Origin: Amylostereum areolatum
Taxonomy: Eukaryota > Basidiomycota > Agaricomycetes > Russulales > Stereaceae
Assembly: GCA_012932865.1 (NCBI GenBank)
Contig: SAXG01000044.1
Coordinates: 310,001-374,000, forward strand
Reading direction: 5' to 3'
Length of the DNA stretch: 64,000 nt
Shown here: positions 33,019 through 53,395 of the stretch, piece by piece
Layout of the letters: every line of letters starts with the position of its first letter
Numbering within the stretch: the stretch's first letter is position 1
Made by a program: the position numbers and the translations under genes
Notes under the pieces: model-generated
The model's database searches: none
The model's input: only the letters and a program-made list of their open reading frames with translations
Told to the model about the DNA's origin: nothing

Positions 33019-34569
<1,551 letters not shown>

Positions 34570-35062
34570 GGCTCAGGCTAGGATGCTGGGGAGGAGTGAA
34601 GGGCGATGAGAAAACACGTTATCGACGGCGGGCTATATATACAAATCGCTTTATAACTGCTTGTAACTTACAAACATACGTCATGAGACCAGAACCCACA
34701 CCGTGCGTGGCGGCCGTGGATCGCTGAGAAGACAGCTGCTCTGATTCCATGTAAGTAATTGTAGCGATTTTCATCCATTGAGTGGGTCAGGGCTATTTTC
34801 GGTTTAACCTCTGTCAGCCCACTTCTGCTGAATAGAAAGCAGGCCTGCTGGGCACACACCGACACAATGGCATTGGCAATTTAGCACCAGCACGACTTGA
34901 GGTGAGAAGTTGGGAATAAAGAGATAGAATGCGTCGTCCCAATCAGCTTGGGGTCATCATAGCCATACAGGGGTAGGCTGAGAGGGATGCATGCGACGAA
35001 AAGCAAGGGAAAGTCACTAGCCCCAGAGCTATCATAGCACACTATCTGTAATTTCTCAGAAA
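34570..35062. other. Intergenic region before the tRNA gene
   Basis: 493 bp. A TATATATA lies at about 34633-34640 in the likely promoter of the reductase gene. No further feature seen. Confidence 0.35.
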
Positions 35063-35150
35063 GCCCACTTAGCTCAGTAGTAGAGCGCGCCACTCGTATG
35101 GTCACGTGACTGACATGGTGAGGTCGATCGTTCAATTCGGTCAGTGGGCA
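35063..35150 (+). tRNA. tRNA-Thr(CGT) with 16-nt intron
   Basis: All arms fold. The acceptor GCCCACT/AGTGGGC is perfect, with discriminator A. The D stem is GCTC/GAGC. The anticodon stem CGCCA/TGGTG has one G-T pair. The T stem GATCG/CGGTC has one T-G pair. The anticodon CGT (35095-35097) reads ACG (Thr). A 16-nt intron (35099-35114, containing the palindrome GTCACGTGAC) sits one base 3' of the anticodon, the standard place for nuclear tRNA introns. A T5 run at 35153-35157 is a Pol III terminator. The D loop reads AGTAGTA where AGTGGTA is usual, so one of the two conserved loop guanines is changed. Confidence 0.9.
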
Positions 35151-35291
35151 CCTTTTTGTCTCTATCATTTTGATAGAGAAAGAGCTTAGAGAGCTATGAG
35201 TCTACGACCGACGAGTCACGACCGTAAGTCGTGACAATTTGGAATTTTACAAGAAAGAGCTTGCACTGAGACAGTGAGAAGTATACGAGTT
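35121..35291 (+). repeat. Left direct repeat (tRNA 3' part plus flank)
   Basis: The last 30 bp of the tRNA gene match 52671-52700 at 29 of 30 positions. Similarity continues downstream in blocks: TTTTGATAGAGAAAG, AGAGCTTAGA, ATTTGGAA, AGCTTGCAC, GAGACAG and AGAAGTATAC. Two perfect inverted repeats lie in the left copy: arms CTCTATCA/TGATAGAG just after the tRNA terminator, and arms GTCACGAC/GTCGTGAC at 35215-35235. Confidence 0.8.
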
Positions 35292-35376
35292 TGTAAAATG
35301 GAAAACGGTCATGTGATGCGCATACATGGACGCGTCAAGACGGCCGCGACGTGTTTCACTTTCGGACCCGTTCAAC

Positions 35377-35834
35377 ATGCCTGCCGACGAGTCCAGCACC
35401 AACGAAAACAGCGCACCTGTCGACGTCACCTCAGCGGAGACCCCCAAGGTGACAAGGAAGATCCGGAGCGACAAGGGGGTCACCCGGCCAAAGCAACCTA
35501 CTACCCTGTCTCATCTGTGCCGTTTCCTTTTCTGCCTTGCCCCGTCTGATGTTTTGATGTTAGGTCCAAAGAGGTGATCGAATCACTCGCCATAGCAGCT
35601 GATCGCGCCCTCTTTGTGTCCATCGAGGCAGACATGTATATCATGGCAGCGAAGAAAGAAATCCTCCGTCTCGAACTCAAGACGAAAAGCCTGGACTACG
35701 CTATAATACGAGCTGCAAAGCGCACAGCGCAACTAAACTACGAAACCCAGGTTGGACGCATCAGGGAGTTGGAGATGAAGCGCGAGCAGGCGCAGGAGCA
35801 GAGAGAGGATCAGGGTATGGTGGTGGACAATTAG
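35377..35834 (+). CDS. Small coiled-coil protein of the recombinase island
   Basis: Two exons (35377-35507, 35564-35834) with a 56-nt intron, about 133 residues. The N terminus is polar and disordered (MPADESSTNENSAPVD). The second exon is a continuous amphipathic helix (SLAIAADRALFVSIEADMYIMAAKKEILRLELKTKSLDYAI and onward to QEQREDQGMVVDN), with heptad spacing of Leu/Ile/Ala expected for a coiled coil. The stop lies 15 bp from the convergent stop of the recombinase gene. Function unknown. Its position between the tRNA repeat and the recombinase suggests it belongs to the element. Confidence 0.6.
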
Positions 35835-38511
35835 TGCGCATGTATGCATCTACATAGTGAAGGGGAGTCCGTCATCATCGCTCTCCACAATGTCCTCCAC
35901 ACCATCGTCAGCATCGCCAATCGTCACAACCGTCCTGAGGGATTCCCACTCGCGGCGCGTTACCGGAGTGTCGTTCAGACGCTGACCCACCAGGGTGGCA
36001 AGACGACCTTGCCATTGCACGATGTTTTCTCCCACTCCAGGACTGATGTCAAGGCCGACCTGGGGAAGATATCAGCACGGGGAAGCGACGACCAAGGGCT
36101 TGACTTACTTGTCGGCCGTCCTCCACAATCGTGGGCAGGGGTATGCCCGTCACCAGCGGTAGTGACAAGGCTAGGGAAGGCTGTTGTCTAGGGGCCGGCT
36201 GCTTGCGCGGGTGTTTGATATCCTTTGCTAGTTTAGAGGATGAAGGCACACCGGTGGCAAGCGGGAGGGTGTCGAACGAGGGTACACCGTCGTCAAGCGC
36301 TATGGCAGACGAGGAAGCAACGTTGTCCGGAGCATCTTCGCGAGGGGTATCGTGGTAGTACTTCAAGTAGACGCGTCGGTACCGATACTCAAGCTCAGCA
36401 TGGTCGTCGTGCTTGGAGCAGTCTTTCAAGAGGTGGTCGGTGAGGTCTTCAATGTTTGAAAATGTGCTGGGGGAAGGTCAGCAGCTGGGTGAGGCGTGAA
36501 AAGGGTGATACGCACATGTTATCGACAGGACACTCGAACCCATCTTCCGTGGCATCGTCGAGGAGTTTGCGCCACGGTGCATGCCTGAGCCTGACAGACA
36601 GTTAGCAAGTAAAAGAACAGAACCGCAAGCACATACATATGACGTTCGAGATGAGACCACACTTTGACGGGGTTGAACGAGCATTCGGGGCAGACCCACA
36701 AGTTTTCTCGCTGAGAGACGATCAGTAAGCGGAAGGAGTAGCAACGAGGACGTTACCTTGTACATGCGCTCACGTAGGCGTTGCTTCTCCAACGGCGCAA
36801 CGAGATACCTCCAGAATGCAAGACGGAGCTCGTCCATGGGGACGTGCATAAACTCGCTGTCCGACGGGTCGTCTATGCGGGGCCGAAAATCGATGGTGTT
36901 CTGGACGAAAGCTTCCTCGGAGGACTTGGATGCGGCACGGTCTGTACCTCCGAGTTCTTTGGTGGACTTTTTAATTTCGTCGCAGAGCTGCTTACTGAGC
37001 TCTTTGAGGACCGGAGTGCGAACAATCGAGGACGAGAGCAGAACAGCAGCTTGAACGGCCGAGGACACCTCGCCCTCGACGTCCTGGGGGGGTTCCGTTT
37101 CGCACGAGGAGAGGTAGATTTTGGTGGCCTGATGAAAGGCTGTCCAGGCCTCGACATCTTCCTCGGAGGATGGGGGGTCGGGGGGTTGCACATCTGCCAA
37201 ACGATCGGTACGAGGAGGAACGGAGATGTGCGTGTCACGTACTAGCAACATAGGGGACTTGTTTGGTGGGAAACTCGACATCAGGCATCCCGTCAGAAGT
37301 GTCCGCGACAACCTTGGGGGCGGATTCGCGGGCGGCGACGGCCGCGGAAAGGAGAGGGACCGCACCCCTCAGACTAGCGATGACAGTGTTTTTGTCCTTG
37401 GTCGTCGCGGCCTTGCGAGCAAGCGCGTCTTCGTAAGTTCGTTCCGCCTTGTCGCTCGTGCGGTATTTTCTCCTCAGATGGCGCCTCTGCTTGGTCTCTT
37501 CGGCGCATAACGCGATGAGCTTGATGCGAGCCTGGACGCCACGAGCATTAGCCAACGTCATGAAAGGGTCCGTCCACGCACCTCGCCTGCGCGGATGCGA
37601 ACATCTTTCTCGTCCTCGTTCAGATCATCCACTTCGATATCACCGTCCGAGTCCAGCGTGCAGCGGTAGAGGGGCGCAGTCACCGTGGCAAGCTTGGCCT
37701 CGTCCTCGAGCATGTCGACGACAGGGTCATCGGTGAGCAGAGGGATATTCTCGGCCTGCGACGGGGTTACGAAATGGATATCCTGCCTTTTGAGGAGGAT
37801 TGGAACGGTGGACTGTTTGAAGCCAGCTCGTCCGAACTCGGATGGAGACAAGTTGTGGCCGGATCCTATCGAGCGGAAAAAGGTGAAGAAATGGGCGCCT
37901 ACCACCGCGACACGGGCCCGGAGGTCGACCAAGATGGGGATGCACTGAACATGGTGGTCAGCTAGATCAAAGAGGAGAGGAAGGACACGAACCTCGATCT
38001 CGTCCAGCTGTTCCGAGGACAGGGCGATGCGCCGTTTGGCTGGACGCTCTGGTGCAGGGGCATCCGCTTGTTCTTCTTGTTGTGCGAGCATCTTGCGACC
38101 GAGGAGAGCCATGACGGCGGCGGAGCTGCGTTCGTGCACATGTTGCCCGGCCTACAAAGAAACAATAAGCGGAGACAAGGACATCCGGGGATGTTCTCAC
38201 TTGAAAGGCGCGGATGTCCTCAGGGTCCAACTCTCCCAGTCGAATCGCGGAGACATCAAAGTTTGCGGTGGACCTAGAATAATAGCGACTCAAGGTTTTG
38301 AACTGACCTTCGGAGTGACCGAGGATGGCCGCGGCCCAGCCCTGGCCCTTGACGAGCGAGTACTGTAGGCAAAATCATGAGTGGATGAGAAATAATGAAG
38401 GGTGGAAAACCAACGTAGTTGCCGGTCTCGCGACGGAGAGCGTACAATCCGGACTTGGGGAGGCCGGCGTTGACGGCGATGGCGGAGATGGATTGGTAAA
38501 GAGTTTGGGTG

Positions 38512-38516
38512 AGCGC
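38512..38516. repeat. Target-site duplication AGCGC, left
   Basis: AGCGC immediately precedes the TG of the 5' LTR and recurs after the CA of the 3' LTR at 48765-48769. Confidence 0.95.
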
Positions 38517-39056
38517 TGTTACAACTTGTCCAAGGTACTCCAGTTTCCATTTCCTTACTAGGAAGGACGTTGCTAAACGACGGGTTACGACGGTGCCCCA
38601 GTTCGTAACCGTCTCAACCACACAACGACGACAGTGCCACAGATCGTCACCGTCTCAACAGCAGTGCCACAGATCGTCACCGTCTCAACGGCATAGCCCC
38701 GACGGTGCCACAGTCTCGTTCCCGTAGATACTCGATACGACCGTTGCTCGATGTACATATATTTACTCGACCTCCTTTCTTATAAAAGGAGGCCCATCGA
38801 ACGAGCCATTCCCCAGCTCGTTCTCTTTGTAAATACAGGACTGTTCTAATAAGAACCTCCTCCTCTAAACGCTAAAGAGAATCCCAAGCAAACTAAGTTG
38901 ATAAGCTCGCCTAAGTCTTCCGTGAAGACTTACTGCTTCGCTTATCGACCTTCACCTTCGTATAACCGAGACGTCTGGATCACCTGATCCCACCTCTCAC
39001 GCGTAAGAGTACTGTAGCCTGAGCCGCTTGTCACGTGATAAGGACCGTCCTTAACA
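38517..39056 (+). repeat. 5' LTR of element 1
   Basis: 540 bp, TGTTACAACTTG...CCTTAACA. Contains TATAAAA at about 38781 and an internal imperfect tandem repeat of a ~28-bp unit (GTGCCACAGATCGTCACCG core) at about 38632-38690. Confidence 0.95.
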
Positions 39057-39135
39057 CTAGAACGAGCTCTCCTCTACACTAGCTCACCCTACAGTTTGGC
39101 GCAGAGCGTCAAACGAAACACCCACCACGGAGTCA
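39057..39135 (+). other. Leader of element 1, possible primer-binding site
   Basis: 79 nt between the LTR and the first conserved-looking Gag residues. TGGCGCAGAGCG at 39097-39108 has the TGG start of a tRNA-primed site, but is 40 nt from the LTR, farther than usual. The gag frame is already open throughout this leader, with no ATG. Confidence 0.35.
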
Positions 39136-41187
39136 GTGGAACAACCCGCTGAAAAAAGACCATCAGATTTTGAGATCCCTCAACTCCAATCAAACTGCAG
39201 TCGAGACTTCCCTAACGGAAACGAAGATCATCGCTGGACATTTGACCCCTATCATCTCCTTTTTTACTACGACGGAACCCTCGTCGCGAAAGAAAGCAAA
39301 GGGACATACGCGTACCAGTGGAACCCACCCATATACAGATACAACCTTCCCCCAGCAGCAGAATACTTCAAAGATAGATCCAAAAGAGAAAAGGAAGACG
39401 GAAGCTACGACAATTCACATTGGAAGCGCCCAGATTATTCAAGACCTCATATCGGGCCCCTCTCATCAGAAGAACTCTGGAAACACCCGGACGCACAGAA
39501 AGTCGAAGAGAAGCCTTACACCGGGAATATTAAGGACTACTGGGAATTTGATCCCGATACCGACACAACCGATACGACAACCGAACCACAGAACCCTCAA
39601 ACCGAACTCCAGCATCCTCAAGAACCCGCAACAACTACACAGCCTCCAGAGGAAACCGCGCCAGAACCTAAGAGAACTGTATCAAACCCCCAAGTTAAGT
39701 CCGATTCCGGAGGAAGTCGAGAAGGCAGCCCATCGAGCGCAGCAGAAACGGAAGGACATACAGAGAAATCAACAAGATCTCCATCAGTTAAATCAGACGA
39801 AGATATCTTCGGAACCAGAAGAGGAAGACAAGGAAATCTATTCGGAAGACCAGAGAACGTCACAACAATGGGAGACACCGCCACCTCGATACCCAACCCC
39901 GCCACCGCACTTGGCAATGTCCCCCCTGGAGAGACTAATGTACCGCGCCAGACGCCTGCAACTCCAACACCAGCCGATCCCGCAAAACCGAGACATGAGA
40001 CTCGATTCTCCCTAGGATTTGGCACGACCGAACCAATAAGATGGAGACCGCCACAATCACCATCACCACCGCCTTCCGACCGATCGATCGAAGACAAGAA
40101 AGGAAAAGAAGTCCAGGACTACGTTTTCGGAAGAGGAGCAACCGCAGATCTTCCGAAAGGATCAAAGTATCCACCAGGGAATTCCCCACCGGGAGGAACA
40201 GGAACAATTGGATCAAAGCCCGACGACAAGGACAAAGGATTCAAGTTAAACGCATTAGGAGTATATGACGGAAGGGATCGGGCAAAAGCAGCAAAGTTCG
40301 TAGAACAATGCGTACTTCGCTTCATAGAATTCCCCAACGCATATGCTGCCAACATGCGTAAGATAACCTTCGTGCTCTCACATCTCACCGATGGGCCTGC
40401 CCTTCACTGGGCGTCCCTTTTAATAAGCAAAATCGATAAGATACGAGATCGCGGCCTAGATCCAGAAGCGTACCTTCCATGGACGGTGTTCCGCGACCAC
40501 TTCTTAGAGACCTTTGGAGAAATAGACCCCGGAAGGGACGCTAGATTCAACATACAGCGCCTGGAACAAGGCACTATGGACACCAAAGATTACATCACGA
40601 TCTTCAGAGACTATGCTATGGAAGCTGGTTACGATCATAAAGCATTGATCGACCAATTCAAGAGAGGACTGCGCAACGATATCGTGGTCGAGATCCTCAA
40701 GAGAGATCACATCTCGAACGATATTGAAGAATGGTATGAACTCGCATTGCGCATCGATAATAACTGGCGAGAAGCTCAAGCATTCCAACGGCATTATACA
40801 AGACCAATGAACCCAACGAGCGACCTCACCCTCCTATACAAGAAACCACAGGCGTACGTTCCATTCCGAAAAGGAAACGGAAACAAAGGAAACGTTACCA
40901 CCGCCAGAGCCGCTCAGACCGGAAACAACGGCCGAAACTTCAGACGCCTTACCCCACAAGAACGTACCGAACTCCAGAAATCAGGATCATGCTTCTATTG
41001 CCGGAAGCCAGGACACATCTCCAGGAACTGCCCAGAGAAACGTACCCAAACAACGATCAATGCACGAACAGCGAATCTAACAGAGGAAGAATCCCCGATT
41101 GATCAGATCACCAAGCTTGTGAACAAGATGGACAGTGAAACGTTCGCACGCACTGCCAACATGTTCAAAGACAATCAGGGTTTTTGA
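39136..41187 (+). CDS. gag: Gag of element 1
   Basis: About 683 codons from GTG 39136; the frame is open upstream but the first ATG is at 39868 (residue ~245). Order: an unusual aromatic N-terminal segment (WTFDPYHLLFYYDGTLVA), a long Pro/Glu/Thr-rich linker, then the capsid-like retrotransposon gag domain from about residue 375 (YDGRDRAKAAKFVEQ, FRDHFLETFGEIDPG, FKRGLRNDIVVEIL). A CCHC zinc knuckle CFYCRKPGHISRNC follows near residue 618. It packages RNA into cytoplasmic particles. The stop overlaps a slippery heptamer that leads into pol. How translation starts is unclear: a non-AUG start or a spliced leader would be needed for the N-terminal part. Confidence 0.9.
   Translation: MEQPAEKRPSDFEIPQLQSNCSRDFPNGNEDHRWTFDPYHLLFYYDGTLVAKESKGTYAYQWNPPIYRYNLPPAAEYFKDRSKREKEDGSYDNSHWKRPDYSRPHIGPLSSEELWKHPDAQKVEEKPYTGNIKDYWEFDPDTDTTDTTTEPQNPQTELQHPQEPATTTQPPEETAPEPKRTVSNPQVKSDSGGSREGSPSSAAETEGHTEKSTRSPSVKSDEDIFGTRRGRQGNLFGRPENVTTMGDTATSIPNPATALGNVPPGETNVPRQTPATPTPADPAKPRHETRFSLGFGTTEPIRWRPPQSPSPPPSDRSIEDKKGKEVQDYVFGRGATADLPKGSKYPPGNSPPGGTGTIGSKPDDKDKGFKLNALGVYDGRDRAKAAKFVEQCVLRFIEFPNAYAANMRKITFVLSHLTDGPALHWASLLISKIDKIRDRGLDPEAYLPWTVFRDHFLETFGEIDPGRDARFNIQRLEQGTMDTKDYITIFRDYAMEAGYDHKALIDQFKRGLRNDIVVEILKRDHISNDIEEWYELALRIDNNWREAQAFQRHYTRPMNPTSDLTLLYKKPQAYVPFRKGNGNKGNVTTARAAQTGNNGRNFRRLTPQERTELQKSGSCFYCRKPGHISRNCPEKRTQTTINARTANLTEEESPIDQITKLVNKMDSETFARTANMFKDNQGF
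41178..41184 (+). promoter_or_regulatory. -1 frameshift site GGGTTTT at the gag stop
   Basis: Gag reads CAG GGT TTT TGA. G-GGT-TTT is a legal X-XXY-YYZ heptamer, and after a -1 slip the next codon is TTG at 41184, the first codon of the pol frame. Confidence 0.7.
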
Positions 41188-44100
41188 ATCGTCCTTCAAC
41201 CGCGGCTGTTGAAAGGACACAGACAATGAACTTTTCAAGTCGATCTTCTGTACAGGATACAGAAGATGACGTAAATAGAACAGTGTATATAAGGTCATAC
41301 CAAGACGGAGCAACACACGCTCCATCAATTCATATACCTGTTATGTTTCATGGAAAGTTCCGTAAAGCCGCAGCAAAAGCGCTATTGGACAGCGGAGCAA
41401 GCAGCACTCTGATCCATCCAGATTTTGTACGAAAACACAAGATGAATCTGATCCAGCTTAAGAAACCGATACCGATATACAACGTCGACGGATCTCGAAA
41501 CACTCTGGGAGAGATCAAACAGAAGGTATACCTTCCAATGACGATGGAAGGAATCAACGGAGAAATTCACCGCGAAAGCCTAGGACTATTCGTCACAGCC
41601 CTAGGAGGAGACGAAGTAATCTTAGGAACCCCTTGGCTTAAAAAACACAACCCTAGCATCGATTGGAGAAAGAGACAGATTACACTACAGACATGTCCAG
41701 GTACGTGCTCCACCACGAGTAAAACAATGATCGTCCAAGGAAAAGACGAACCCTTCCTACCATCATTCGAAGAACAGAAGATCAACCATCACGCAACGAT
41801 AGAAGAACAAGAAGACCCCGAATTCAACTCCGATCTCGCCGATATCAGGATAGTCAGAACGTTCCATGGAAAGACTGACGTAGAAACAATGCCGATTGCA
41901 GAAGAAACAAACGAACCCGGTATTTGGATAACAGCAAGAGCAACCAAGGCACAAGAACTCGCAGAAAGAGCGGCCATAGGAGAGAAGAAGAAGACACTCG
42001 ATGAGATGATTCCGTCTAGTTACAAACAGTATCAGAAGGTATTCGAAAAGAAAGCGTCGGAACGCTTTCCAATCAGCAGACCTTGGGATCACGCGATAGA
42101 CCTGACTGAAGGATGGAAACCTCGGAATTGTAAAGTGTACCCAATGACGGTACCGGAACGGAAGGAACTGGACACATTCATAGATGAACATCTACGAAAA
42201 GGGTACATCCGAGAATCAAAATCAGAGATATCATCACCCTTCTTCTTTATCAAGAAGAAAGATGGATCTCTTCGACCAGTACAGGACTATCGCTATCTTA
42301 ACTCGATCACGGTCAAAAATGAATACCCGATACCACTCATCTCAGATCTCATCGACAAATTAAAGGGCGCTAAGATCTTCTCAAAGCTCGATCTCCGATG
42401 GGGATACAACAATGTTCGGATCAAAGAAGGAGATCAATGGAAAGCTGTGTTCAAAACAAACAGAGGCCTTTTCGAACCAATGGTAATGTTCTTCGGACTA
42501 ACCAACTCACCCGCAACATTCCAAGCAATGATGAACGCACTGTTCAAAGAATTAATAGACACCGGAAAAGTGGTGGTCTATATGGATGACATACTGATAT
42601 TTACAGAAACACTCGACGAACATAGGAAACTGATGAAAGAAGCCCTCCAACTTCTAGAACGGAACGATCTATTCCTGAAACCAGAGAAGTGCTTCTTCGA
42701 ACGACCATCGATCGAATACCTAGGCGTGATAATCACGCACAACAAGGTACAGATGGACCCGGTCAAAGTCCAAGGGCTAGCAGAATGGCCCACACCGAGG
42801 AAAGTAAAAGAAGTCCAATCATTCCTCGGATTTGGAAATTTCTATCGACGCTTCATCAAAGACTATTCTAAGATCGCCAGACCCCTATTCCAGCTCACAA
42901 AGAAAGACCACGAATGGAACTGGACGACCGAATGTGAACGTACCTTCGAAAGACTAAAACGAGAATTCACGTCGTCCCCAATCTTAATCATGCCCGATGA
43001 AAACAAACCATTCCGCATAGAGAGTGACGCCTCCGATTTCGCGTACGGAGCTATACTATCGCAGCCAGATGAGATCGAAAGATGGCATCCGGTCGCGTAC
43101 CTATCCAAATCACTGTCACCCGCGGAACAAAATTACGAGATATACGACAAAGAACTCTTAGGAGTAGTGAAAGCCTTAGAACACTGGCGACACTATCTAG
43201 AAGGAGCGAACCACAAAGTCGAAATCTGGACAGATCATAAAAATCTAGAATATTTCACAACAGCGCAGAAACTCAATCGACGGCAAGCACGATGGAGCTT
43301 ATATCTGTCCCGTTTCGACTACACCTTGGTGCACAAACCAGGAAGTACAAACAAGGCAGATGGACTTTCTAGAAGACCAGATCATAAGGAAGACATTCCA
43401 GACAACGACGACCGCATCCTGCTTCACCCTTCGGTTTTCAGGGCTAGAGCCACCGGAAGAGGAACAGTCGAAGCAGTCGGAGACAAAGAACTTCTCAAAG
43501 AACTAAGAAACTTCTCACACCTAGATGATGAAGTTTGGACAGCGTTAGATACGATCAAAAGATCGGGACCACGCACCCTCACAAAAGGAATCGAAGATTG
43601 GAACTTCGAGAACGATCTGATCATCAGAAAAGGAAAGATCTATGTGCCACAGAATCTCGAACTTCGACGCATGATCCTAAAATCGCATCATGATCTGGAA
43701 ACGATTGGACATCCAGGCGAAATGAAAACTCTGGAGCTGGTACAAAGAAACTTTTGGTGGCCAAAGATGATTTCCTTCGTAAAAGGTTATGTTCAAGGAT
43801 GTCCCGTATGCCAGTCAACAAAAAATGTCACGCATCCGGCAAAACATCCATTACAACCCACGGAAATACCAGAACGACCATGGGAAACAATCACATCAGA
43901 TTTTATTACAGACCTTCCGATCTCCAACGGATTCGATTCGATCAACGTAGTCGTCGACAGGTTCACCAAAACCGCAGTATTCACGCCGTGCCTAAAGACG
44001 ATCAACGCAGAAGAAACAGCTGATCTTCTGATCGACAATGTTTACAGACGATTTGGACTATGGAAAAGAATGATATCGGACAGAGGCCCTCAATTCGCAT

Positions 44101-45071
44101 CCAAAGTATTCCAATCCATCTGCGAAAGCCTCGGAGTTATCTCGTCGCTCAGTACAGCGTATCATCCCCAAACGGATGGCGAAACAGAAAGAGTGAATCA
44201 AGAATTAGAACAATATCTTCGAGCATTCTGCAACGGAGATCAAACGAATTGGGCAAGACTTCTACCAAAAGCAGAATTTGCACACAATATAAGACAACAT
44301 TCAGCTACGAAAACTTCCCCATTTGAACTCCTACACGGGTATCAACCAGTTTTTAACCCGGCAATACCAACCGATCCGCGAATACCGACAGCCGAAGAAA
44401 GAATAAAGAACTTTAAGGACGCATGGGACAACGCAGAAGCGAGTCTGGAAATAGCTGCCAAATTAATGAAAATGCAGCACGATCAAACGACCACACTGCG
44501 AGACCAACTCAAACAGGGTGACCAAGTATGGTTAGATGGGAAAAATCTTAACACGGTATACCCGAAAACTAAACTAGCACCAAAACGATTTGGCCCATTC
44601 AAAATCGAAAAAGTAATAGGACCAGTAACCTATCGCTTAGAACTACCGGCGAAATGGAAAATACATCCGGTATTCCACGCGGCACTATTAATTCCGTTCA
44701 AAGAAACAGAACAATATGGAGAAGCTTACGAAAAACCGCCCCCGGAACTAGTAAACGACGAAGAACTCTATGAACTGGAAACGATAATAGCCTCGAAACT
44801 AGACAAACGATATTCCGAACCATTACATTATTTCGTAAAATGGAAAGGCTACCCAGATTCCGGTAACACATGGGAACCAGCATCTAATCTCGAAGGATCA
44901 AAAGATGCGATCACAGAGTTCCACCGGAATAATCCCAAGGCACCGAAGTTACCACCACAGCCAATCAAAGATACCAACACAGAAACCACTGATCGTGACG
45001 AAACTGAAGCAACGCAGCAAGAAAGAAGGCCACCGAGACGAAAGAAACGCAAGACGAAAGTAAGACAGTAG
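41184..45071 (+). CDS. pol: Pol of element 1: protease, RT, RNase H, integrase, chromodomain
   Basis: 1295 codons uninterrupted. Protease DSGASSTLIHP near residue 68. Reverse transcriptase VQDYRYLNSITVKN and KLDLRWGYNNVRI, with active site YMDD near residue 466. RNase H with DASDFAYGAILSQ, YDKELLGVVKALEHWRHYL and DHKNLEYF. Integrase zinc domain H-H-C-C (SHHDL...GCPVCQ, residues ~836-877). The DD35E core has VVVDRFTK, SDRGPQF and QELEQYLR, all catalytic acidic residues present. A C-terminal chromodomain, HYFVKWKGYPDSGNTWEP, lies near residue 1225. Expressed by -1 frameshifting from gag (first codon TTG; first ATG at 41226). The chromodomain presumably directs integration to modified chromatin. 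Confidence 0.97.
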   Translation: MNRPSTAAVERTQTMNFSSRSSVQDTEDDVNRTVYIRSYQDGATHAPSIHIPVMFHGKFRKAAAKALLDSGASSTLIHPDFVRKHKMNLIQLKKPIPIYNVDGSRNTLGEIKQKVYLPMTMEGINGEIHRESLGLFVTALGGDEVILGTPWLKKHNPSIDWRKRQITLQTCPGTCSTTSKTMIVQGKDEPFLPSFEEQKINHHATIEEQEDPEFNSDLADIRIVRTFHGKTDVETMPIAEETNEPGIWITARATKAQELAERAAIGEKKKTLDEMIPSSYKQYQKVFEKKASERFPISRPWDHAIDLTEGWKPRNCKVYPMTVPERKELDTFIDEHLRKGYIRESKSEISSPFFFIKKKDGSLRPVQDYRYLNSITVKNEYPIPLISDLIDKLKGAKIFSKLDLRWGYNNVRIKEGDQWKAVFKTNRGLFEPMVMFFGLTNSPATFQAMMNALFKELIDTGKVVVYMDDILIFTETLDEHRKLMKEALQLLERNDLFLKPEKCFFERPSIEYLGVIITHNKVQMDPVKVQGLAEWPTPRKVKEVQSFLGFGNFYRRFIKDYSKIARPLFQLTKKDHEWNWTTECERTFERLKREFTSSPILIMPDENKPFRIESDASDFAYGAILSQPDEIERWHPVAYLSKSLSPAEQNYEIYDKELLGVVKALEHWRHYLEGANHKVEIWTDHKNLEYFTTAQKLNRRQARWSLYLSRFDYTLVHKPGSTNKADGLSRRPDHKEDIPDNDDRILLHPSVFRARATGRGTVEAVGDKELLKELRNFSHLDDEVWTALDTIKRSGPRTLTKGIEDWNFENDLIIRKGKIYVPQNLELRRMILKSHHDLETIGHPGEMKTLELVQRNFWWPKMISFVKGYVQGCPVCQSTKNVTHPAKHPLQPTEIPERPWETITSDFITDLPISNGFDSINVVVDRFTKTAVFTPCLKTINAEETADLLIDNVYRRFGLWKRMISDRGPQFASKVFQSICESLGVISSLSTAYHPQTDGETERVNQELEQYLRAFCNGDQTNWARLLPKAEFAHNIRQHSATKTSPFELLHGYQPVFNPAIPTDPRIPTAEERIKNFKDAWDNAEASLEIAAKLMKMQHDQTTTLRDQLKQGDQVWLDGKNLNTVYPKTKLAPKRFGPFKIEKVIGPVTYRLELPAKWKIHPVFHAALLIPFKETEQYGEAYEKPPPELVNDEELYELETIIASKLDKRYSEPLHYFVKWKGYPDSGNTWEPASNLEGSKDAITEFHRNNPKAPKLPPQPIKDTNTETTDRDETEATQQERRPPRRKKRKTKVRQ

Positions 45072-45214
45072 TGAGACTCAACGGCATTCAGGCGAATGCA
45101 CTGCCAACAAAGGGGGGATAAAAACCCTACAGGTTCAACAAGACAGATCACCAATGTCCACCACCCCAAACGCAACCAGCATCTCCTCTACCAATCAGAC
45201 CGCCTCACCCAACA

Positions 45215-47150
45215 ATGTCGAACGCATCCGCCTCGTCTGCAACAAAGCACACCACACCCAACAGGAACGCACTCTCTGTGGAGACTGCTTCATCGCTCGA
45301 TCGGCAGCAATCTTCGCAATTAAGTCAGTACCTCCTCCGTCTAGGTCAGGACCAGACGGAAGAACAGGGGGTAAGCCGATTGGAAGCACACAGAAGAACC
45401 CTAACTGAAGCACCCGAATTCCTCACAGGTGCTAACGCAATCCCCGTGGCCCGGAGCCACGGAAGCCCCAACACCCGAATCCCTTATACTCGAGAATCAA
45501 ATAGCCCACATGATAGTCGGAGTAGGAATCGAGCAGGCCAGACAGAGGATCGACGACCTCAGGAGGGAGTCGGCCGACGTCCAGGGCATCCTGAAGGACC
45601 ACAACAAGATGCTCGACGAAGAACTCCACCAACTGGACCTGAGGTACCTGACGCTCTCGACCGAGATGGAGGAACGAGAGGTCAAACTTCTTCGACGATT
45701 CCGGAAGCTAGCGCAACAGCTGTACTCAACGTCGCAGAGCTCCGGAGATTCCTTACTGAAGTCGGACTACGAGTCAACTGGCTCAACTGGGAAAGACACA
45801 CCTTCCGCGCAGCCTACGAAGGAGAAATCCTCCGAAGACGAATGGAAACTACCGGAGTTCCCCATATGTCGTCACGCGAAGGCCCCGACATTGACCTCAT
45901 CTTCCATGGACATCACATCTCCCCGGGCTATACTGTTCGACCCGATCCCATCGCATCCGCCCTCACCAGACCCCCGTTCCTTCCTAACGCCCCTCCACGA
46001 CCCGTCACCGCCCCCACGCCAACAGGATCCTTACCCATCCCCGGCATCACCCAGATCAACCCCGTCCAGCCTCCCGTCGCTAGAAACGGATTACCCGGAG
46101 AGCAGTTCGGACAGCCCCTGCCAAGAGAGATATCCAGACAGCCCATGGCTCCCCCAGAGCCCAGACAACAGACCAGCGATCCGCGACCAATACCTGGGAC
46201 ATCTCCTCGGCTGCCCACAATGCCTAGACCGCCAACTCCATTCCCGCTATCTGCTAGCGACGCTCCCATGCCGTGGCACGGAAACCCCGCTCCCTATCCC
46301 TCATTCCTCCGCCCGCACCCTGACCACGCTCGAGATCCCGTCACCCAGGATCCCCGAATCACCGCACAGCGACGTAAACATGATTCTGCCGAGCCCGACG
46401 GAAGACCATTCAAGCGGATCAGAGAGTTCGGACTCCCCGATGCATCGGGTGAGGGAGAACTTCAAGGAACTCAAGAAGATAGTCGATCGGATGATGGAAG
46501 ATCGTGCTCGCCGGAGACAGGAACTCAACCTAACGGACGAGTCGGACAGTTCAGCGGACGAATCGGACAGCTCGACGGACAAATCGGAGAAGGACGACAG
46601 GGAGAAGGAAGAAACGGCCGAGAATCCCTCGGACCAGTGGAACAACGAACCGACCACGTGGACGCAAGAGGAGTGGGACGCAATTCCCTCGAAGCCGCGG
46701 AAACGCTGCTGGAAATGCGGCAAGCGAGGCCATCTCCGCCGAGATTGCCCCCGTCGCAAGAACGCTCCCCCTCACTTCCCCCAATCTCGGTCCTGCTATC
46801 CCCTCCGACCACAGACTCCTCTTCCTCACCCTCGCCCGGACCGTCCGGATATCAGTTACGGTCCAGGAACACTGATGTTCCACCCCCACCTCCGACGTAC
46901 CGACGCTACCGCCCGCGCTCACAGACAGCTTCTGGGATTCCTCACGCGACGCAAGAGCCTGACGCACGAAGCCGCCCAACACGCCACTGAGCAGTGGCTG
47001 TATTGGGAGGACGCAATGCTCCGCACTCAGCGAGAACCCCCCTCGCGCTTCAATCACTCCTGGCGCGTCGACGACCTCTTCTGGAAGGAAGAAGATTGGG
47101 ACTTGCAGGAAGCGGAAGAGTCGAAGGATCACTGGCCGGAACCCTGGTAA
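45215..47150 (+). CDS. Accessory coiled-coil/zinc-knuckle protein of element 1 (spliced)
   Basis: ATG at 45215. Exon 1 (45215-45370) joins exon 2 (45429-47150) across a 58-nt intron, phase 0, about 625 residues. The second part has a long heptad coiled coil (QARQRIDDLRRESADVQG, LRYLTLSTEMEEREVKLLRRF), a Pro/Ser-rich middle, an acidic stretch (DESDSSADESDSS), a CCHC knuckle CWKCGKRGHLRRDC near residue 475, and a Trp/acidic end. A second Gag-like RNA-binding protein is a fair guess. If the intron is retained, exon 1 instead continues in another frame for 591 residues to 46990, giving a low-complexity protein without motifs. Located between pol and the 3' LTR, where env sits in retroviruses, but nothing here is envelope-like. 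Confidence 0.6.
45371..45428 (+). other. Predicted intron in the accessory gene
   Basis: 58 nt: donor GGGG|GTAAGC, branch-like CCCTAACTG, acceptor CCTCACAG. Spliced versus retained forms lead into two different long open frames. Confidence 0.6.
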
Positions 47151-47533
47151 GCGTACGGACGAACTCTCACCCATCATACGCACTCGGACTATTTCTCCCG
47201 TCATCCCGCCTTTACGATTTCTCCTTACGATACTCCTCGGACTGATCACGGACTGCGCCCTCATTCGCACGCATATTTTCCTCGGACTTCTCTACTATAC
47301 CGGTTTCTATCGCTATGAGGAAGGCGAAACGCTTGATACTCTCTCCGCGACGCGCCGGACGCGTCGCCTGCTTACGACTCAGTTTTGATTATGTACGAAT
47401 CCTCGCTTACGATTGACGGCAATGATTACATCATTGCCCCTCTAAATCGCAAGCATAAAAGGAAAACCACAAGACGACAACATGCTCAGACATCGTCTAA
47501 CAAACCCACTCGCACCACCCAAACCAACCAAAC
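47151..47533 (+). other. Spacer in the accessory block of element 1
   Basis: 383 bp with only short frames; a TATA-like CATAAAAGG at about 47454 precedes the next ORF. An 18-residue start (MYESSLTIDGNDYIIAPL) near 47391 looks protein-like but could not be extended with confidence. Confidence 0.3.
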
Positions 47534-47917
47534 ATGTCGTCTACTCTCGCCTCCTCTTCGCGCAACCTCTCCACCACCGACTGCACCCCTCCTACCACTC
47601 CTCCTCCTTCGCCCGTCCTCTCGCGCACTCCCACGCCCGACCCACAAGACGAGGAACTCCTTCGTCATCTCAAACGAGTCACAGAACTCCTAAACCGTCC
47701 GGACGTCGCTCGCGCCATGAAGAGGCCGAGAAGCCCAGACGAAGAAGCCATGCAGGAGTCGAAGGGAAGATGCGGCATCAAGGGACTCTTCCGAAAACGC
47801 GGGCCTCGGTTCAAGAGCCCGGATCACGCGACGACGGCGAGGATAGGACATCGGCTAGGGGCTACTACGATAGATGAGGAGGACCTGAAAGTAGTAGAGG
47901 CGTTGTTAAAGCGATAG
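47534..47917 (+). CDS. Small basic protein of element 1
   Basis: 127 residues from ATG 47534. The N terminus is rich in Ser, Thr and Pro. The middle is an amphipathic helix (EELLRHLKRVTELLNRPDV) followed by a nuclear-localisation-like AMKRPRSPDEE. The C terminus is basic, with a final helix (EEDLKVVEALLKR). A competing frame (47482-47877) overlaps it but is low-complexity. No family recognised. Retained uninterrupted in a recently inserted element, hence probably functional. Confidence 0.5.
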   Translation: MSSTLASSSRNLSTTDCTPPTTPPPSPVLSRTPTPDPQDEELLRHLKRVTELLNRPDVARAMKRPRSPDEEAMQESKGRCGIKGLFRKRGPRFKSPDHATTARIGHRLGATTIDEEDLKVVEALLKR

Positions 47918-47934
47918 AATAGAATTCTATCGCT
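47910..47934 (+). repeat. 11-bp inverted repeat over the stop codon
   Basis: Arms AGCGATAGAAT and ATTCTATCGCT, spacer AGA; covers the TAG of the small basic ORF. Could be a terminator-like or protein-binding palindrome. Confidence 0.7.
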
Positions 47935-47950
47935 GAGGTCCGAACAAAAG

Positions 47951-47959
47951 ATATAAAAG
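47951..47959 (+). promoter_or_regulatory. TATA box upstream of the membrane-protein ORF
   Basis: ATATAAAAG lies 36 nt before the ATG at 47995 and just after the inverted repeat, so the last ORF may have its own transcript. Confidence 0.45.
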
Positions 47960-47994
47960 AGCGAACATTAGAAAGCGATAGACCCAGAAGCACA

Positions 47995-48435
47995 ATGCAA
48001 TCAACACAATCACCAGATCTCGCGATTTTCGATACGCCCACCCCACGCTGGCTCATCCCCATCATCAGCATCATCGTAGGACTCACGATCCTCACCTTCG
48101 TCGCATCGACTATATTCCTTCTCCAATGGCGAAGAACGAACGATCGACAACACGTTCAAGACATCCCTCTAGAACCTCTTCGATTCAGGAATCTACAGGA
48201 CGTAGATTCTAGAGAGGGGGATAGTGTTACAACTTGTCCAAGGTACTCCAGTTTCCATTTCCTTACTAGGAAGGACGTTGCTAAACGACGGGTTACGACG
48301 GTGCCCCAGTTCGTAACCGTCTCAACCACACAACGACGACAGTGCCACAGATCGTCACCGTCTCAACAGCAGTGCCACAGATCGTCACCGTCTCAACGGC
48401 ATAGCCCCGACGGTGCCACAGTCTCGTTCCCGTAG
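47995..48435 (+). CDS. Single-pass membrane protein of element 1
   Basis: 146 codons from ATG 47995. Residues ~19-45 form one strong membrane helix (WLIPIISIIVGLTILTFV...IFLLQW) followed by a basic stop-transfer stretch (RRTNDRQH), giving a short N-terminal outside or lumenal part and a cytosolic tail. The frame crosses the polypurine tract and runs ~70 codons into the 3' LTR, so its C-terminal half is LTR-encoded. It lacks a signal peptide, cysteines and a fusion peptide and is far smaller than an envelope protein. A role in membrane association of particles is only a guess. Confidence 0.55.
   Translation: MQSTQSPDLAIFDTPTPRWLIPIISIIVGLTILTFVASTIFLLQWRRTNDRQHVQDIPLEPLRFRNLQDVDSREGDSVTTCPRYSSFHFLTRKDVAKRRVTTVPQFVTVSTTQRRQCHRSSPSQQQCHRSSPSQRHSPDGATVSFP
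48211..48224 (+). other. Polypurine tract of element 1
   Basis: AGAGAGGGGGATAG directly before the TG of the 3' LTR, where plus-strand DNA synthesis is primed. Confidence 0.85.
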
Positions 48436-48764
48436 ATACTCGATACGACCGTTGCTCGATGTACATATATTTACTCGACCTCCTTTCTTATAAAAGGAGG
48501 CCCATCGAACGAGCCATTCCCCAGCTCGTTCTCTTTGTAAATACAGGACTGTTCTAATAAGAACCTCCTCCTCTAAACGCTAAAGAGAATCCCAAGCAAA
48601 CTAAGTTGATAAGCTCGCCTAAGTCTTCCGTGAAGACTTACTGCTTCGCTTATCGACCTTCACCTTCGTATAACCGAGACGTCTGGATCACCTGATCCCA
48701 CCTCTCACGCGTAAGAGTACTGTAGCCTGAGCCGCTTGTCACGTGATAAGGACCGTCCTTAACA
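48225..48764 (+). repeat. 3' LTR of element 1
   Basis: 540 bp; by eye the same as 38517-39056 base for base, including the internal tandem repeat. Confidence 0.95.
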
Positions 48765-48769
48765 AGCGC
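48765..48769. repeat. Target-site duplication AGCGC, right
   Basis: Partner of 38512-38516. Confidence 0.95.
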
Positions 48770-50654
48770 CGGCTCGTCGACGAGGGCGGTTCCACCGTTG
48801 TTGACGGAAAGAAAACTGTTGGACGATCAGCGGCTGGTTCGGTTCACGGCAGAGGGGACGCACAAGGCCTGCTCCATCATCTCCGGAACGACCTCAAGGG
48901 ACGCGCGGTCGTCCTCCCAGAGAGTGTCAACGGTCTGAAAAAGTGTTAGGGAGGGCAAACATACGGGGGAAAAAACGCACGACGCCTTTGCCGAACGCAC
49001 CGCGCTCGACCATGTAGAGGACGATCCACGTCGACGGTTCAAACGGGAGGTTGTGGGATAGCTGGGTAGGTGCAAAGACGAAATCCTGGTCCTTTGCTGA
49101 AATGCTGTCGGCGAACCCCTGCAAGGCGCGTGAGCGGGAGGACACGGCCGGCGTCGACGAACTTTACCTTCCAGTGTTCAAACTTGACCGTGACGGTGTA
49201 CGCGAGCTTGTCGATGCGTTCGACTTGGACGTCCTTGAATTTGAGGTACTAGGAAACGTGAGCGGAGGGAGCGCAGGGGAGGGAGGCGACATACTCTCCC
49301 CTCATCCCGGTAGCCTTCGCTCGAGGCGCCGAGGGAGCCAGGCCGAGCGCCCGTCATGAAGCCGAATATGATGGCCGCGCACGTTTGGAGTTTGACAAGC
49401 CTACCCGATTCTTCCGAGGAGGCGAGAGCTTGCTGCAACAAGAGATGGACCTCCCATCGGCCAAAGTAGTGGACGGGCTCGCGGTTGCGGGAGAGGTGAA
49501 ATTCCTTGATGACTACACAAAGTTAGACGGAGAACGGGGCGGTGTGATAAATAGCCCACTGTCGTGAACCTCCGCCACGAGATCTTTGTAAAGGTTGAAG
49601 CGGGTAAGGAGGATGACGCCGGCGAGTTCATCCGAGTCGTTATCGTGGCAGTACATCACGATACAATTGACGAACCCGATCATCCAGTCGTTGAGCGTGG
49701 TCGCTTTGACGTGCTTGGAGAACCGACCGGGTGTTCCAAGGAACTGGGAACGTCAGCGGGGGGGTTAAATAACTGCGAACAGGCGATGTAGACGCACGCG
49801 GGAGCGGAGGTAGGCACGGGCGTAGGTCTGGATGATGCTACGCTTCCAGGTGTCTTTCTTGGGAATGCCCATGAGGAAGAGAAAGGTGTAATAGTGTTCG
49901 ACGTTGGCGAGGTGATGTTTGAGGGTGAACTCGTTGACGAATTCTTTGCTGAGGAGGGACTTTGAGAGGATCTCGTCGAAGATCTCCTTCGAGGCGTCCT
50001 TGCCGATGGCATGCCTGAGGTTAGTCATGAGCCTTTCGGCCTTTTTACCGTCGCCGAACTTGACATCAGGTGCGCCCTTGAAGACGCGGGGAGCGTGGAG
50101 ATCTTCCTGGGGGAGAACAAAGGGAGCATCGGGGACTTTGTCGACGGTGGGGGCCGGAGGGCGAGACGGGAGCAGTGGGGCGGGGGCCTGAGGCTACAGA
50201 GAGAGGTGAACGAGGGGGACGAGCGAGCGAGAAGATACGTACGCGGGCCAAGTTGGTGTATTTGGTGCGGTCGGAGGGCCCGGCGAGCGAGGCGTTGGTG
50301 GTGCTCGGATGCTCAGCATTGACGGCGGAACGGATGGAGGTTGTGATGTTTCTTCCAATGCTGGCGGCACCTCTGCCAATACTGGCGGCACCTCTGCCGA
50401 CGGTGGCGGCACCTCTGCCTAGCCGGGAGAGATACGCCTGCGAGAAAATGTAAGTGGAGGACCGAACGGGGGGGGACAGGGACGCACGCTGGGACTTTTC
50501 CTCTTGACACTGGACATGGGCAGACAGGACGTTCATTCACGAGGCTTTTAAGGCGAGCTGAGAGGATCGTCGCCCGAAATTCCGGGGGTTCGGCCAAAGT
50601 CACGTTACTGCGCTGGGCCAACGGCACAGTGCAGTCACGTGGTGTTTATTGCAA

Positions 50655-51843
50655 TTAAGCTACATGGTACAGTGGGCGCTGGCTGCGGAAGAACGAGATG
50701 AGGTACAAGCGAAAGAGAGCGCCACCGAGCTGGCAGCCGAGGGAGAGAGTGGCGGCAACGGTGGGGGCGTACAAGGCGACGCGGGCTTGGGAGAGGACAG
50801 GGGTCATGTCCCGTTCGAGTACGACGAGCAGGGTGCGAAAGGTGGCGGAGTAGCACGTACAGTTGTCCGCGTTGAAGGTCGGGTCAAGGAGAAGGGCGGG
50901 ACCGACGGTGTCGTAGAGGAGAGCGAGGCGGCAGCGGACACGTTGAAGATCGACGTGTTCTTGGTCAAAATTGGCTCGGGTGCGGACGTACAGGGGGTTG
51001 CGAGCGCGGTCGTGGAAGGGGAGATCGCGGAGGGAGGACCAGACGTCCTGCTGCTCGATCCAAAGGGCAAACTGCGCGTCACGAAGGCTCGTGCGCCAGG
51101 CTTTCCCGCCGGGACCGGAAGACCTCTCGGAGTAGTCCTGATGATAGCGGAGGAGCTCGCAGGCGGCGAACACGTCGGAGACCCAGCGACTGCCGGTGGG
51201 GTCGCCGGAGCGAACAAGCGTGGGCCGGTGGAGGAGACGTTGGTCGATGTCCATCGCGTCGATCTCAAAGGAGTGCGTGCACCGGGAGGAGACCGCGTGG
51301 AGATGAGTCGCGGGGGCAAAGCGGGGCTGCCAGCATGATGAGGAGGGTAGGAGCGAGGATGATGGCTCACTTACCCAAAGAACGCCGACGGCTGGGTGCG
51401 CAGACCCACGAAAAGCGTGCCGGAGGAATGCATCCTCGTACAGCGCGTGGGTGAGCGGGGGGAAACCGTCGATGACGAGGTCGGCGAGTTCGTCGGTAGA
51501 AACAGGCCCAGACGCCGAGTCGAGCGCCAGCTCGTGGAAACGCGCTAAAGCGCGAGCGAGCGTGCGGGGAACGGCGGGTTCCTGGGATAATCAGAGGGCG
51601 GATGTATGCGCGGAGAAAAGGACGTACGGGAGTGGGGGTGCGTTCGTCGGGCTCTTCTTGCTCGGGTGGGAGGGGGACGAGTTTAAGAACGGCGAGAAGC
51701 CGATCGCGAACGGTTTGACGACTTTTGCGAGAGGCGGGGGAGGCGGGGGGCTCCGTGTCCTCGTAGTGGGCGAGGAGGCGGTCGCAAAACGCGACCACGT
51801 GCGCGTCGTCCAGAGGCCCGTCGCTGGGCCAGAGGGAGGACAT
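50655..51843 (-). CDS. Unknown companion gene of the recombinase
   Basis: Three exons (51628-51843, 51375-51581, 50655-51326) with introns of 46 and 48 nt, 364 residues, every exon a multiple of three. It starts MSSLWPSDGPLDDAHVVAF. The second and third exons look globular and mostly helical (LARALARFHELALDSASG, RWVSDVFAACELLRYHQDY, LRDAQFALWIEQQDVWSSL). The C-terminal ~70 residues are hydrophobic (SATFRTLLVVLERDM, APTVAATLSLGCQLGGALFRLYLISFF), perhaps two membrane helices. No family recognised. It ends 118 bp upstream of the recombinase start on the same strand, so the two are likely one transcriptional neighbourhood. Confidence 0.65.
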
Positions 51844-51917
51844 GATGGGAGGAGGAGAACCGGGAACGGGGTCCTCGGGGGGGAAGGCATGGAGCTGTCA
51901 AGGTATGAATGGGGACC

Positions 51918-51964
51918 ACGTGTATCCGAAAGCTGATTGCGGTGGGCGAACGCCCGTTTGGAGG
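51918..51964. repeat. Direct repeat copy 1 with GGGCG/CGCCC palindrome
   Basis: Matches 52007-52046 apart from a 7-bp insertion between GCTG and GTGGGCG. Lies 75 bp upstream of the companion gene start on the minus strand. Confidence 0.75.
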
Positions 51965-52006
51965 TGTGTGGTGGAGTGTCTGACTTTACAGACCCCAAGA
52001 TGGCCG

Positions 52007-52046
52007 ACGTGTATCCGAAGCTGGTGGGCGAACGCCCGTTTGGAGG
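52007..52046. repeat. Direct repeat copy 2 with GGGCG/CGCCC palindrome
   Basis: Partner of 51918-51964. Confidence 0.75.
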
Positions 52047-52670
52047 GTTTGTCGTGTGCTGTGGAGGGTCCTTCCTGAATTTGCAGGACTTGAAATGGGG
52101 AATTTCGCGGATCGGGTGCAACGAGGAAGACCTATCGGAGCGTTTCACATCCATGGGCGAGGCTACTTGAGGAGAGAGAGCCTGTCGTTTGCCGAGAATC
52201 GTCGTGGCGTAGGCGGCCGACGGATTGAAATAGTGGCCGTCGCCGTTTGAAGGGACATGCCCTGGGGCGTGTATTGTGGAGGGCAAACCGAGGCGTGCGT
52301 CGAAACAGTCGGGAAATAGGGAAGGAAACGCCGCGGGAGGAGCGGGTGCCGAGCGTGGGCTCTGGTGAACGGGGTGGATGATGAATGGGGGGGGAGGGTC
52401 ATTGGTTGAGGTGGCCACGGGTCGCGCGGGAGAAGGGGCAGACAGTGGAAGCGGCGAGCTTCGGTAACGGCGATGGAGACAGCGCCGACGACGGCGTGGA
52501 CGCGAGAACAGCGGCGAACTGGGAGAGGCAGGCTCGGTGAGAAAAACAAACGGCCCGATAAGGAAACAAGGGTGCCGGTCCGTGTCTAGTCTCCCGTCGC
52601 TGACCTAACCGGAAGATAGTCGTTCTTGTCCAAAGCTCGACCGAGCGGATTGAACACTCTCCTGGGATAG

Positions 52671-52830
52671 AGGTCGATCGTTCAATCCGGTCAGTGGGCA
52701 CCCTTTTGTTACTTCATTTTGATAGAGAAAGTTGAGAGAAAGAGCTTAGAATTTGGAACTTTACAGGAAAAAGCTTGCACAGGCACTGAGAGTCTGAGAG
52801 TTGAGACAGCGAGAACTTAGAAGTATACAT
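52671..52830 (+). repeat. Right direct repeat (partial tRNA-Thr 3' part plus flank)
   Basis: 30 bp equal to the tRNA variable loop, T arm and acceptor 3' strand (29/30 match to 35121-35150) with discriminator A and a T4 run after it, followed by ~130 bp of gapped similarity to 35151-35291. No convincing 5' half precedes it, so no functional tRNA is encoded. The one difference gives the more usual T-loop C. Confidence 0.8.
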
Positions 52831-52912
52831 TACCAGCGAGTTCGTCGGGAAAACGGCCTGGCGCTGATTTGCCCATGTAGTTGTTATGAGATCACGTGAA
52901 TATTGTAGCGGA

Positions 52913-53395
52913 TGTCAGCAACAGTCTATCTGCGATGCAGGTTCAGGACGTCGCGACGAGGTACAAGGCGAGGAGAGACGAGGATAGGATCGAGGGGGGC
53001 AAGTGATAAACGAAGGTGTGGACCTTCCCCTGCAGTACTTAGGGAGGATCCCCCAGGTAGCCGGAGAATAGAAAAGGTTGAGATGACCCCTCCTCATAGA
53101 TTGGTGAGCCCTTATATACATGAGGATAAGGACCCAAACGAAGACAAACAAAGCCGGAGTAGGAGTGGGTCAGGACGGACTACGAAGTGGGTACCACGGA
53201 GTACGAAGTGGGTCACAGCACGAGGCGAGGTAAGTATGACTCCATGGTCTAGATCATGACCGAGGAAGCCGAGAAGTCCGGTATGCCCGAAGGGCCGGAC
53301 GCAAGGCGGAGCCGATGCGAAGTCCGATGCGAGGTCCGATGGTAAACTATAGTAAAGTAAGGTCCGATGTATATATTTAGGAGGCGTTCATGACA
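52913..53395 (-). mobile_element. Solo LTR (Ty3/Gypsy), minus strand
   Basis: 483 bp reading TGTCATGAACGCC...GTTGCTGACA on the minus strand, flanked by a perfect 5-bp duplication GCGGA (52908-52912 and 53396-53400). It contains TATATAAGG on that strand. It begins and ends like the LTR of element 2 (TGTCATGAACGG...GTTGCTGACA) but differs in between, so it is a related family. No internal region remains. Confidence 0.88.

Follow-up and report, generated by a model that had tools for sequence, protein, structure and literature searches.

A compact family of tyrosine-recombinase elements that appears to insert inside tRNA genes in Amylostereum areolatum

The island at the tRNA-Thr gene

The stretch analysed here (the window; 64,000 nucleotides, C122:310001-374000 in the 57-Mb, 182-contig assembly of Amylostereum areolatum) contains an island bounded on one side by a tRNA gene and on the other by a second copy of that gene's 3' part, with a gene for a tyrosine recombinase (YR) between them. 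Since some loci of the assembly occur in two copies at about 99%, both haplotypes seem to be at least partly assembled. The tRNA gene (35063-35150, plus strand) is a complete tRNA-Thr(CGT) with a 16-nt intron; its 3' limit is the discriminator A at 35150 by sequence, and is put at 35152 by ARAGORN. The 3' part of this gene (35120-35150) is repeated at 52670-52700 with 30 of 31 bases equal, and the approximately 140 bp that follow the two copies are also similar, with gaps (local alignment score 93.5, compared to a maximum of 47.9 in 200 shuffles). The left end of the element, made up of the tRNA 3' part and these ca. 140 bp (35120-35290, plus strand), recurs with gaps at 52670-52842 (plus strand), where the tRNA-Thr 3' part and 142 bp resembling the sequence after 35150 form the right boundary of the first element.

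Three genes lie between the two copies. A small coiled-coil gene, apparently of two exons (35377-35834, plus strand), is followed by the YR gene with its many small introns (about 35850-50536, minus strand) and by a companion gene that belongs to no Pfam family (50655-51843, minus strand); the start codons of the small gene and of the companion are presumed ones. The YR gene is interrupted by a long terminal repeat (LTR) retroelement, Gypsy-like by eye and foreign to the element (38517-48764, plus strand), which lies inside an exon. This insertion is young; its LTRs are identical at 540/540 positions, and the target-site duplication AGCGC is found at 38512-38516 and 48765-48769. The YR pieces on either side of it were treated separately, and once it is subtracted the island measures ca. 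7.27 kb and holds three genes. The gene order tRNA (+), small coiled-coil gene (+), YR (-), companion (-), tRNA 3' part (+) is complete at two loci, and a third shows the left half of it; in both the window and its relative on contig C45 the companion sits between the right edge and the YR.

Six exon pieces of the window YR matched two hypothetical proteins of Amylostereum chailletii with 40-74% identity, and the YR model of C45 was 95% identical to a hypothetical protein of the same species over the searched region. The motif sites of the window YR are located at about 49.34 kb (R of TGARPGS), 38.44 kb (YxxR of LYALRRE) and 38.28 kb (Y of RYYSR). A motif comparison identified G[AV]RPGS, LYALRR and RYYSR/RHYSR/RFYSR in the window YR, P0001 and P0002, which is the R...YxxR...Y pattern of captains. 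For the Sanctuary captain the residues R, YxxR and Y, with a tyrosine in place of Cre's histidine, are given in parts of PMC12506042. A zinc-finger-like motif was also seen by eye at the C-terminus of the window YR. Judged by these motifs the window-type YR would be captain-like; Pfam, a PDB sequence search and profile comparison assigned it to no secure family, and a match to transcription factor IIIA (E 0.15) was regarded as chance. The AlphaFold model of the companion is mainly helical and of low confidence. Protein searches at E<=0.01 returned two YR proteins among 7994 scored candidates, and one companion of the type found on contig C104 (see below) among 7997, all of them from A. chailletii; a single-sequence search for companion proteins found none. 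These searches score only candidates with exact shared words, and absence elsewhere means little.

The sequence-only reading of the window had already described the complete intron-bearing tRNA-Thr(CGT), the repeated tRNA 3' end with its gapped flank similarity, and a YR gene, a companion and a small coiled-coil gene within ca. 7.3 kb between the copies. All of these were borne out: the tRNA by ARAGORN as well as by sequence, the repeat by the comparison given above, and the gene content by the YR protein matches and by relatives of all three genes at other YR loci.

A comparison with contig C97 bears on the origin of the left boundary. The left flank on C97 aligned with window positions 33520-35157 at 99.0%, the match extending back to window position 27840, and ends in an intact tRNA-Thr (ARAGORN) that is followed by unrelated sequence, with no island. 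The 5' exon is common to the two loci, and is in this respect that of the host; divergence begins at the intron, inside the gene. Over the 32 bases of the C97 3' part, the left window copy shows 5 differences and the right copy 4. On this alignment C97 looks like the state without the island, and we infer that the intron and the 3' exon of the window tRNA-Thr come from the element and constitute its left attachment site. The sequence after the C97 tRNA-Thr is also found on C172 (96.8%), up to 67 bp before the tRNA, at which distance a transposon-like sequence with TAGTGTTGCACAAA takes over (C172:20660); a rearrangement or a transposon at the same tRNA locus is a possible cause of this switch.

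The right copy is probably not the host's own 3' part, a point on which the sequence-only reading is to be amended. Because both 3' copies differ from that of C97 and related sequence follows both, we read window positions 52670-52842 as the probable left end of another element in tandem, which a Plavaka-type DNA transposon interrupts at 52843; the host's own 3' part would then be missing from the contig. Alternatively, it could be C97's own tRNA 3' part, rather than the window copies, that was altered, and this has to be allowed for.

The left part of the Plavaka-type transposon, which is foreign to the element (52843-56325, plus strand), masks the true right flank. From 52843 the window again matches another contig, C118, in which the matching stretch is an 18.7-kb insert in a repeat resembling a miniature inverted-repeat transposable element (MITE), with a Plavaka transposase match and, by eye, an apparent GGCTGGCC duplication at its edges. 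C118 was considered as the host right flank and rejected, the stretch being a Plavaka-type transposon within the MITE-like repeat. Two features of the window copy of this transposon are absent from the C118 copy: a solo LTR at about 52914-53394 and an insert of 7.5 kb (56326-63835, with a 9-bp overlap in the alignment).

Related loci at other tRNA genes

Contig C45 was matched by both the YR and the companion searches, with YR pieces matching between 818237 and 814372 and companion pieces between 840390 and 839130, both in descending order (companion in two pieces, 54% and 49% identity). Most window YR exons match this locus, and a relative of the small gene adjoins the YR at 813814-814089 (a match at 813847-814089 has 29%, E 0.02); the small proteins of the window and C45 aligned with a score of 79, compared to no more than 33 in 1000 shuffles. 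The left boundary is a tRNA-Val-like gene (813495-813564; Rfam, 37.6 bits), in which the first 44 bases are those of an intact tRNA-Val and the remainder is copied poorly. At the right boundary (840621-840650) stand exactly the 30 bases missing on the left. When joined, the two halves, which are 27,082 bp apart, reproduce 74/74 bases of an intact paralog (C161:1073214-1073296), and ARAGORN calls the joined sequence as tRNA-Val(AAC) while calling neither part as it is present. The exact stretch shared at the two boundaries is short: CTCAGTTC. The island spans 27 kb. The ca. 20 kb between YR and companion include a non-LTR retroelement with reverse transcriptase and endonuclease matches, which makes up part of the extra length. 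A search of the assembly for a second C45 allele found none.

A split tRNA-Leu gene on the same contig (844392-845554) was also tried as the island boundary, and was replaced by the tRNA-Val pair, which is nearer and correctly oriented. In this gene ca. 1.07 kb of sequence splits the tRNA-Leu within its intron, with a GTGGGATTTGRACCC-like repeat on both sides that resembles the reverse complement of a T arm. The insert is perhaps another, smaller tRNA-entering element.

Contig C161 was also matched by the YR search; 3.3 kb of it contain most of the YR, and a small-gene relative adjoins it (143684-143941, minus strand; the C45 portion of the query is matched at 59%). At the other two loci 250 and about 415 bp separate the small-gene match from the end of the tRNA; by this spacing the minus strand should carry a tRNA 3' end at about 144190-144356, and a 120-base stretch (144180-144299) was chosen accordingly. 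It holds the T arm GCTGGTTCGAGACCGGC, the acceptor TCGAAGG, an A and TTTT, with the 3' end at 144246 on the minus strand, which we take to be that of a tRNA-Tyr. Rfam did not report a tRNA for this stretch, in which the 3' portion alone is present. A detector for a T arm followed by TTTT is expected to give about 0.001 matches per 120-base single-strand stretch. In 32 control loci (314,170 strand-bases) it gave two matches, of which one is the C97 tRNA-Thr (two of the loci overlap, and dropping one brings the total to 307,992), and one match in 92,200 strand-bases of the window outside the island.

Taken together, there are at least three loci of the window YR type (the window, C45 and C161), all from one single-exon search. 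The small gene is present at 3/3, and on its side 3/3 also have a tRNA or the 3' end of one; the companion is present at 2/3, and at both of these (window and C45) a tRNA 3' part lies on the companion side. The genome tRNA list rests on 63 scored candidates out of 1434, and is not usable to exclude tRNAs anywhere.

A more distant relative was found on contigs C104 and C177, where relatives of the companion (27-47% identity in pieces) and a YR of the DUF3435 kind lie no more than 5 kb apart; the C104 YR matches DUF3435 with 43.2 bits. Directly outside the companion, C104 carries three tRNA-Glu 3' parts, with T arms on the plus strand at 49260, 49930 and 50096. The last of these parts lacks one base and does not appear in the tRNA-Glu search described below; C177 carries one such part. 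The two contigs are 99.3% identical over 2.9 kb and are possibly alleles, C104 having an additional 629 bp between two 41-bp copies. An attachment site that is repeated would be expected to gain or lose sequence in this way. The tRNA-Glu 3' parts (C104:49241-50200, compared with C177:148-313) are arranged in tandem with a 167-bp repeat unit and in unequal copy number. Among the 12 rows of a tRNA-Glu search were seven intact genes elsewhere and three partial copies on C104 and C177, a classification which leaves out C56 and C101.

The search with the DUF3435 YR gave five rows, two of them with a companion (C104 and C177), and the companion search gave eight rows on five contigs, on four of which a YR lies within about 23 kb. 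On the fifth, C158, the companion is a weak fragment with a stop, and no YR was found. At 3.4 kb from this fragment (C158:41001-43200, offsets 131-204 and 370-443) there are two tRNA-like genes, inverted relative to one another and with similar flanks. Neither the C158 fragment nor the DUF3435 YRs of C150, C124 and C1 were taken as support.

These loci also bear on the remaining claims of the sequence-only reading. Its central proposal, a basidiomycete YR element integrated through a tRNA 3' part, gains from the tRNA-Val of C45, the tRNA-Glu of C104/C177, the 3' end on C161 and the islandless tRNA-Thr of C97. Further islands flanked by tRNA 3' copies, which it had suggested looking for, do exist, on C45, and tRNA 3' ends also stand at C161 and C104/C177. 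It had named the T arm and acceptor as the attachment core; the tRNA 3' part is indeed used, but the exchange falls near base 44/45 on C45 and from the intron on in the window. Its expectation of a tRNA left intact on one side is correct for the window but not for C45, where ARAGORN missed the left tRNA in spite of its 37.6 bits in Rfam. A companion that always accompanies the recombinase was not observed (2/3 loci of the window YR type). Neither empty sites with both tRNA copies nor recombinase relatives with conserved ends unrelated to tRNA, the two outcomes it had listed as refuting an integration, were seen.

Proposed mechanism and alternatives

We regard the window island as one member of a compact family of YR transposons that integrate within tRNA genes, with the YR recombining a site on the element with the tRNA gene, and assign this interpretation a probability of roughly 0.87. 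Three of its steps can be read directly at the loci: the layout; the exact split of a tRNA gene with its 3' part at the far end, as on C45 (74/74 on joining the flanks); and the replacement 3' end supplied by the element, the window tRNA-Thr being complete with an intron and 3' part unlike those of C97, and the C45 replacement being poor. The YR would pair a tRNA 3'-like core carried by the element, possibly in a circular intermediate, with a chromosomal tRNA gene, and would presumably catalyse strand exchange inside the core that both have in common, close to base 44/45 in the case of C45 and, in the window, between 5' exon and T arm. The 3' part native to the tRNA would thereby be moved to the far end and an element copy, faithful or poor, would take its place, so that survival of the tRNA would depend on the quality of that copy (good in the window, poor on C45). 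A second element may then enter the rebuilt site and give rise to tandem arrays, which would account for the element-like character of the right copy in the window. The companion and the small protein presumably have roles in this process.

A fuller version, toward which we lean only slightly, holds that a captain-like YR exchanges the 3' part of the tRNA for the element copy, that the family changes tRNA identity and stacks in tandem, that the companion and the small protein fit the YR to its target, and that the system is independent of prokaryotic islands.

Several observations weigh against the proposed family. The empty-site check suggested by the sequence-only reading succeeded in part: C97 offers an islandless tRNA-Thr, but it can be compared with the window on the left side only, the assembly contains no other copy of the C45 flanks, and a complete empty site was not found. 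The LTR element disrupts the window YR, which rules out activity of this copy in its present form. Pfam gave no match for the window-type YR, whether with the C45 model (E<=1), four window pieces or P0001/P0002 (E<=10). A profile comparison of this YR with the C104 DUF3435 YR was not significant (probability 0.24%, E 0.25), with the R motif lined up, and both AlphaFold models were unusable (mean predicted local distance difference test scores of 31.0 and 43.2). The companion search found none on C161. At the more distant locus, the C104 YR is of the DUF3435 kind and points the opposite way with respect to the companion, and C104:40001-46400 yielded no tRNA. The companion search gave no companion for three of the five DUF3435 rows (C150, C124 and C1). 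On C1 (C1:2075350-2082070) a distance of 6.1 kb separates the DUF3435 YR from an intact tRNA-Glu, but the YR lies on the 5' side of the tRNA. In this C1 tRNA-Glu both acceptor ends are altered together.

Insertion close to tRNA genes does not as such call for site-specific recombination. Tethering to genes transcribed by RNA polymerase III (Pol III), of the Ty1/Ty3 and dictyostelid type, is well described (parts of PMC5006619) and could leave tRNA pieces as by-products, but on C45 the tRNA is split within the gene and its halves rejoin without loss at 74/74 bases, and the window tRNA-Thr departs from C97 from the intron on and not outside the gene. We therefore consider tethering very improbable. 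The lowest probability is given to a segmental duplication, or ectopic recombination between tRNA-Thr paralogs, that made both copies with a YR present there by chance; C97, C118 and C172 do show the region to be rearranged and rich in transposons, yet the same layout recurs with a different tRNA on C45, and the C161 tRNA 3' end stands at the expected place.

Whether the element should be called a true Starship, one that occurs in a basidiomycete and targets a tRNA rather than 5S rDNA, is a question of classification and compatible with the family proposed above. Its YxxR...Y pattern is like that of captains and the C104 YR matches DUF3435; Osiris Starships insert into 5S rDNA (parts of PMC12153272), and Starships have been reported in Tremella fuciformis (parts of PMC13066641). 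Against such a placement, which we think unlikely, stand the size of ca. 7 kb with no recognised cargo, the companion gene between edge and YR, and the lack of a DUF3435 match in the window-type YR.

Comparison with known systems

Starships (Osiris, Enterprise family) share with the proposed family a fungal YR with R...YxxR...Y, and Osiris is reported to insert into a Pol III gene (parts of PMC12506042 and PMC12153272). The large size of Starships, with cargo and accessory genes, is not seen here, where ca. 7.27 kb and three genes remain once the LTR element is set aside; the target is a tRNA, the 3' part is borne by the element, the companion lies between edge and YR, and the window-type YR gave no match to the Pfam captain family, DUF3435. 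Cryptons (CryptonF) are likewise fungal YR DNA transposons without terminal inverted repeats, with terminal direct repeats of 4-6 bp, and fungal and oomycete CryptonF encode GCR1_C (parts of PMC3212892); the word tRNA occurs 0 times in the main text of that paper. In contrast, the repeats here are a ca. 31-bp tRNA repeat in the window and 41 bp on C104, and GCR1_C was not detected, P0001 and P0002 having no Pfam match at E<=10.

Ty1/Ty3 and dictyostelid retrotransposons insert near, not into, the tRNA gene and use other enzymes. They have in common with the present family the use of tRNA genes as insertion landmarks (parts of PMC5006619). A literature search, covering open-licence papers in part, found no description of a fungal YR element inside tRNA genes.

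If the proposed family is real, the tRNA attachment-site strategy of bacterial islands has also evolved in fungi, and captain-like recombinases extend to small elements of Basidiomycota. Several tRNAs used by one enzyme family would provide natural tests of target choice, and of target change, by a YR, and a tRNA-specific eukaryotic recombinase could serve as a tool for integration at defined sites.

Integration into tRNA genes is familiar from bacterial and archaeal islands and phages, which use a YR, a tRNA 3' part as the attachment site and a replacement 3' end, and form tandem arrays. The fungal loci resemble them in the YR, the tRNA 3' attachment site, the element-borne 3' end and the probable tandem arrays, and differ in the eukaryotic host, the intron-rich captain-like YR and the other accessory genes; the likeness is drawn at the level of mechanism. 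The element described here is best filed as a variant of the fungal YR transposons that acts like the tRNA-integrating islands of prokaryotes.

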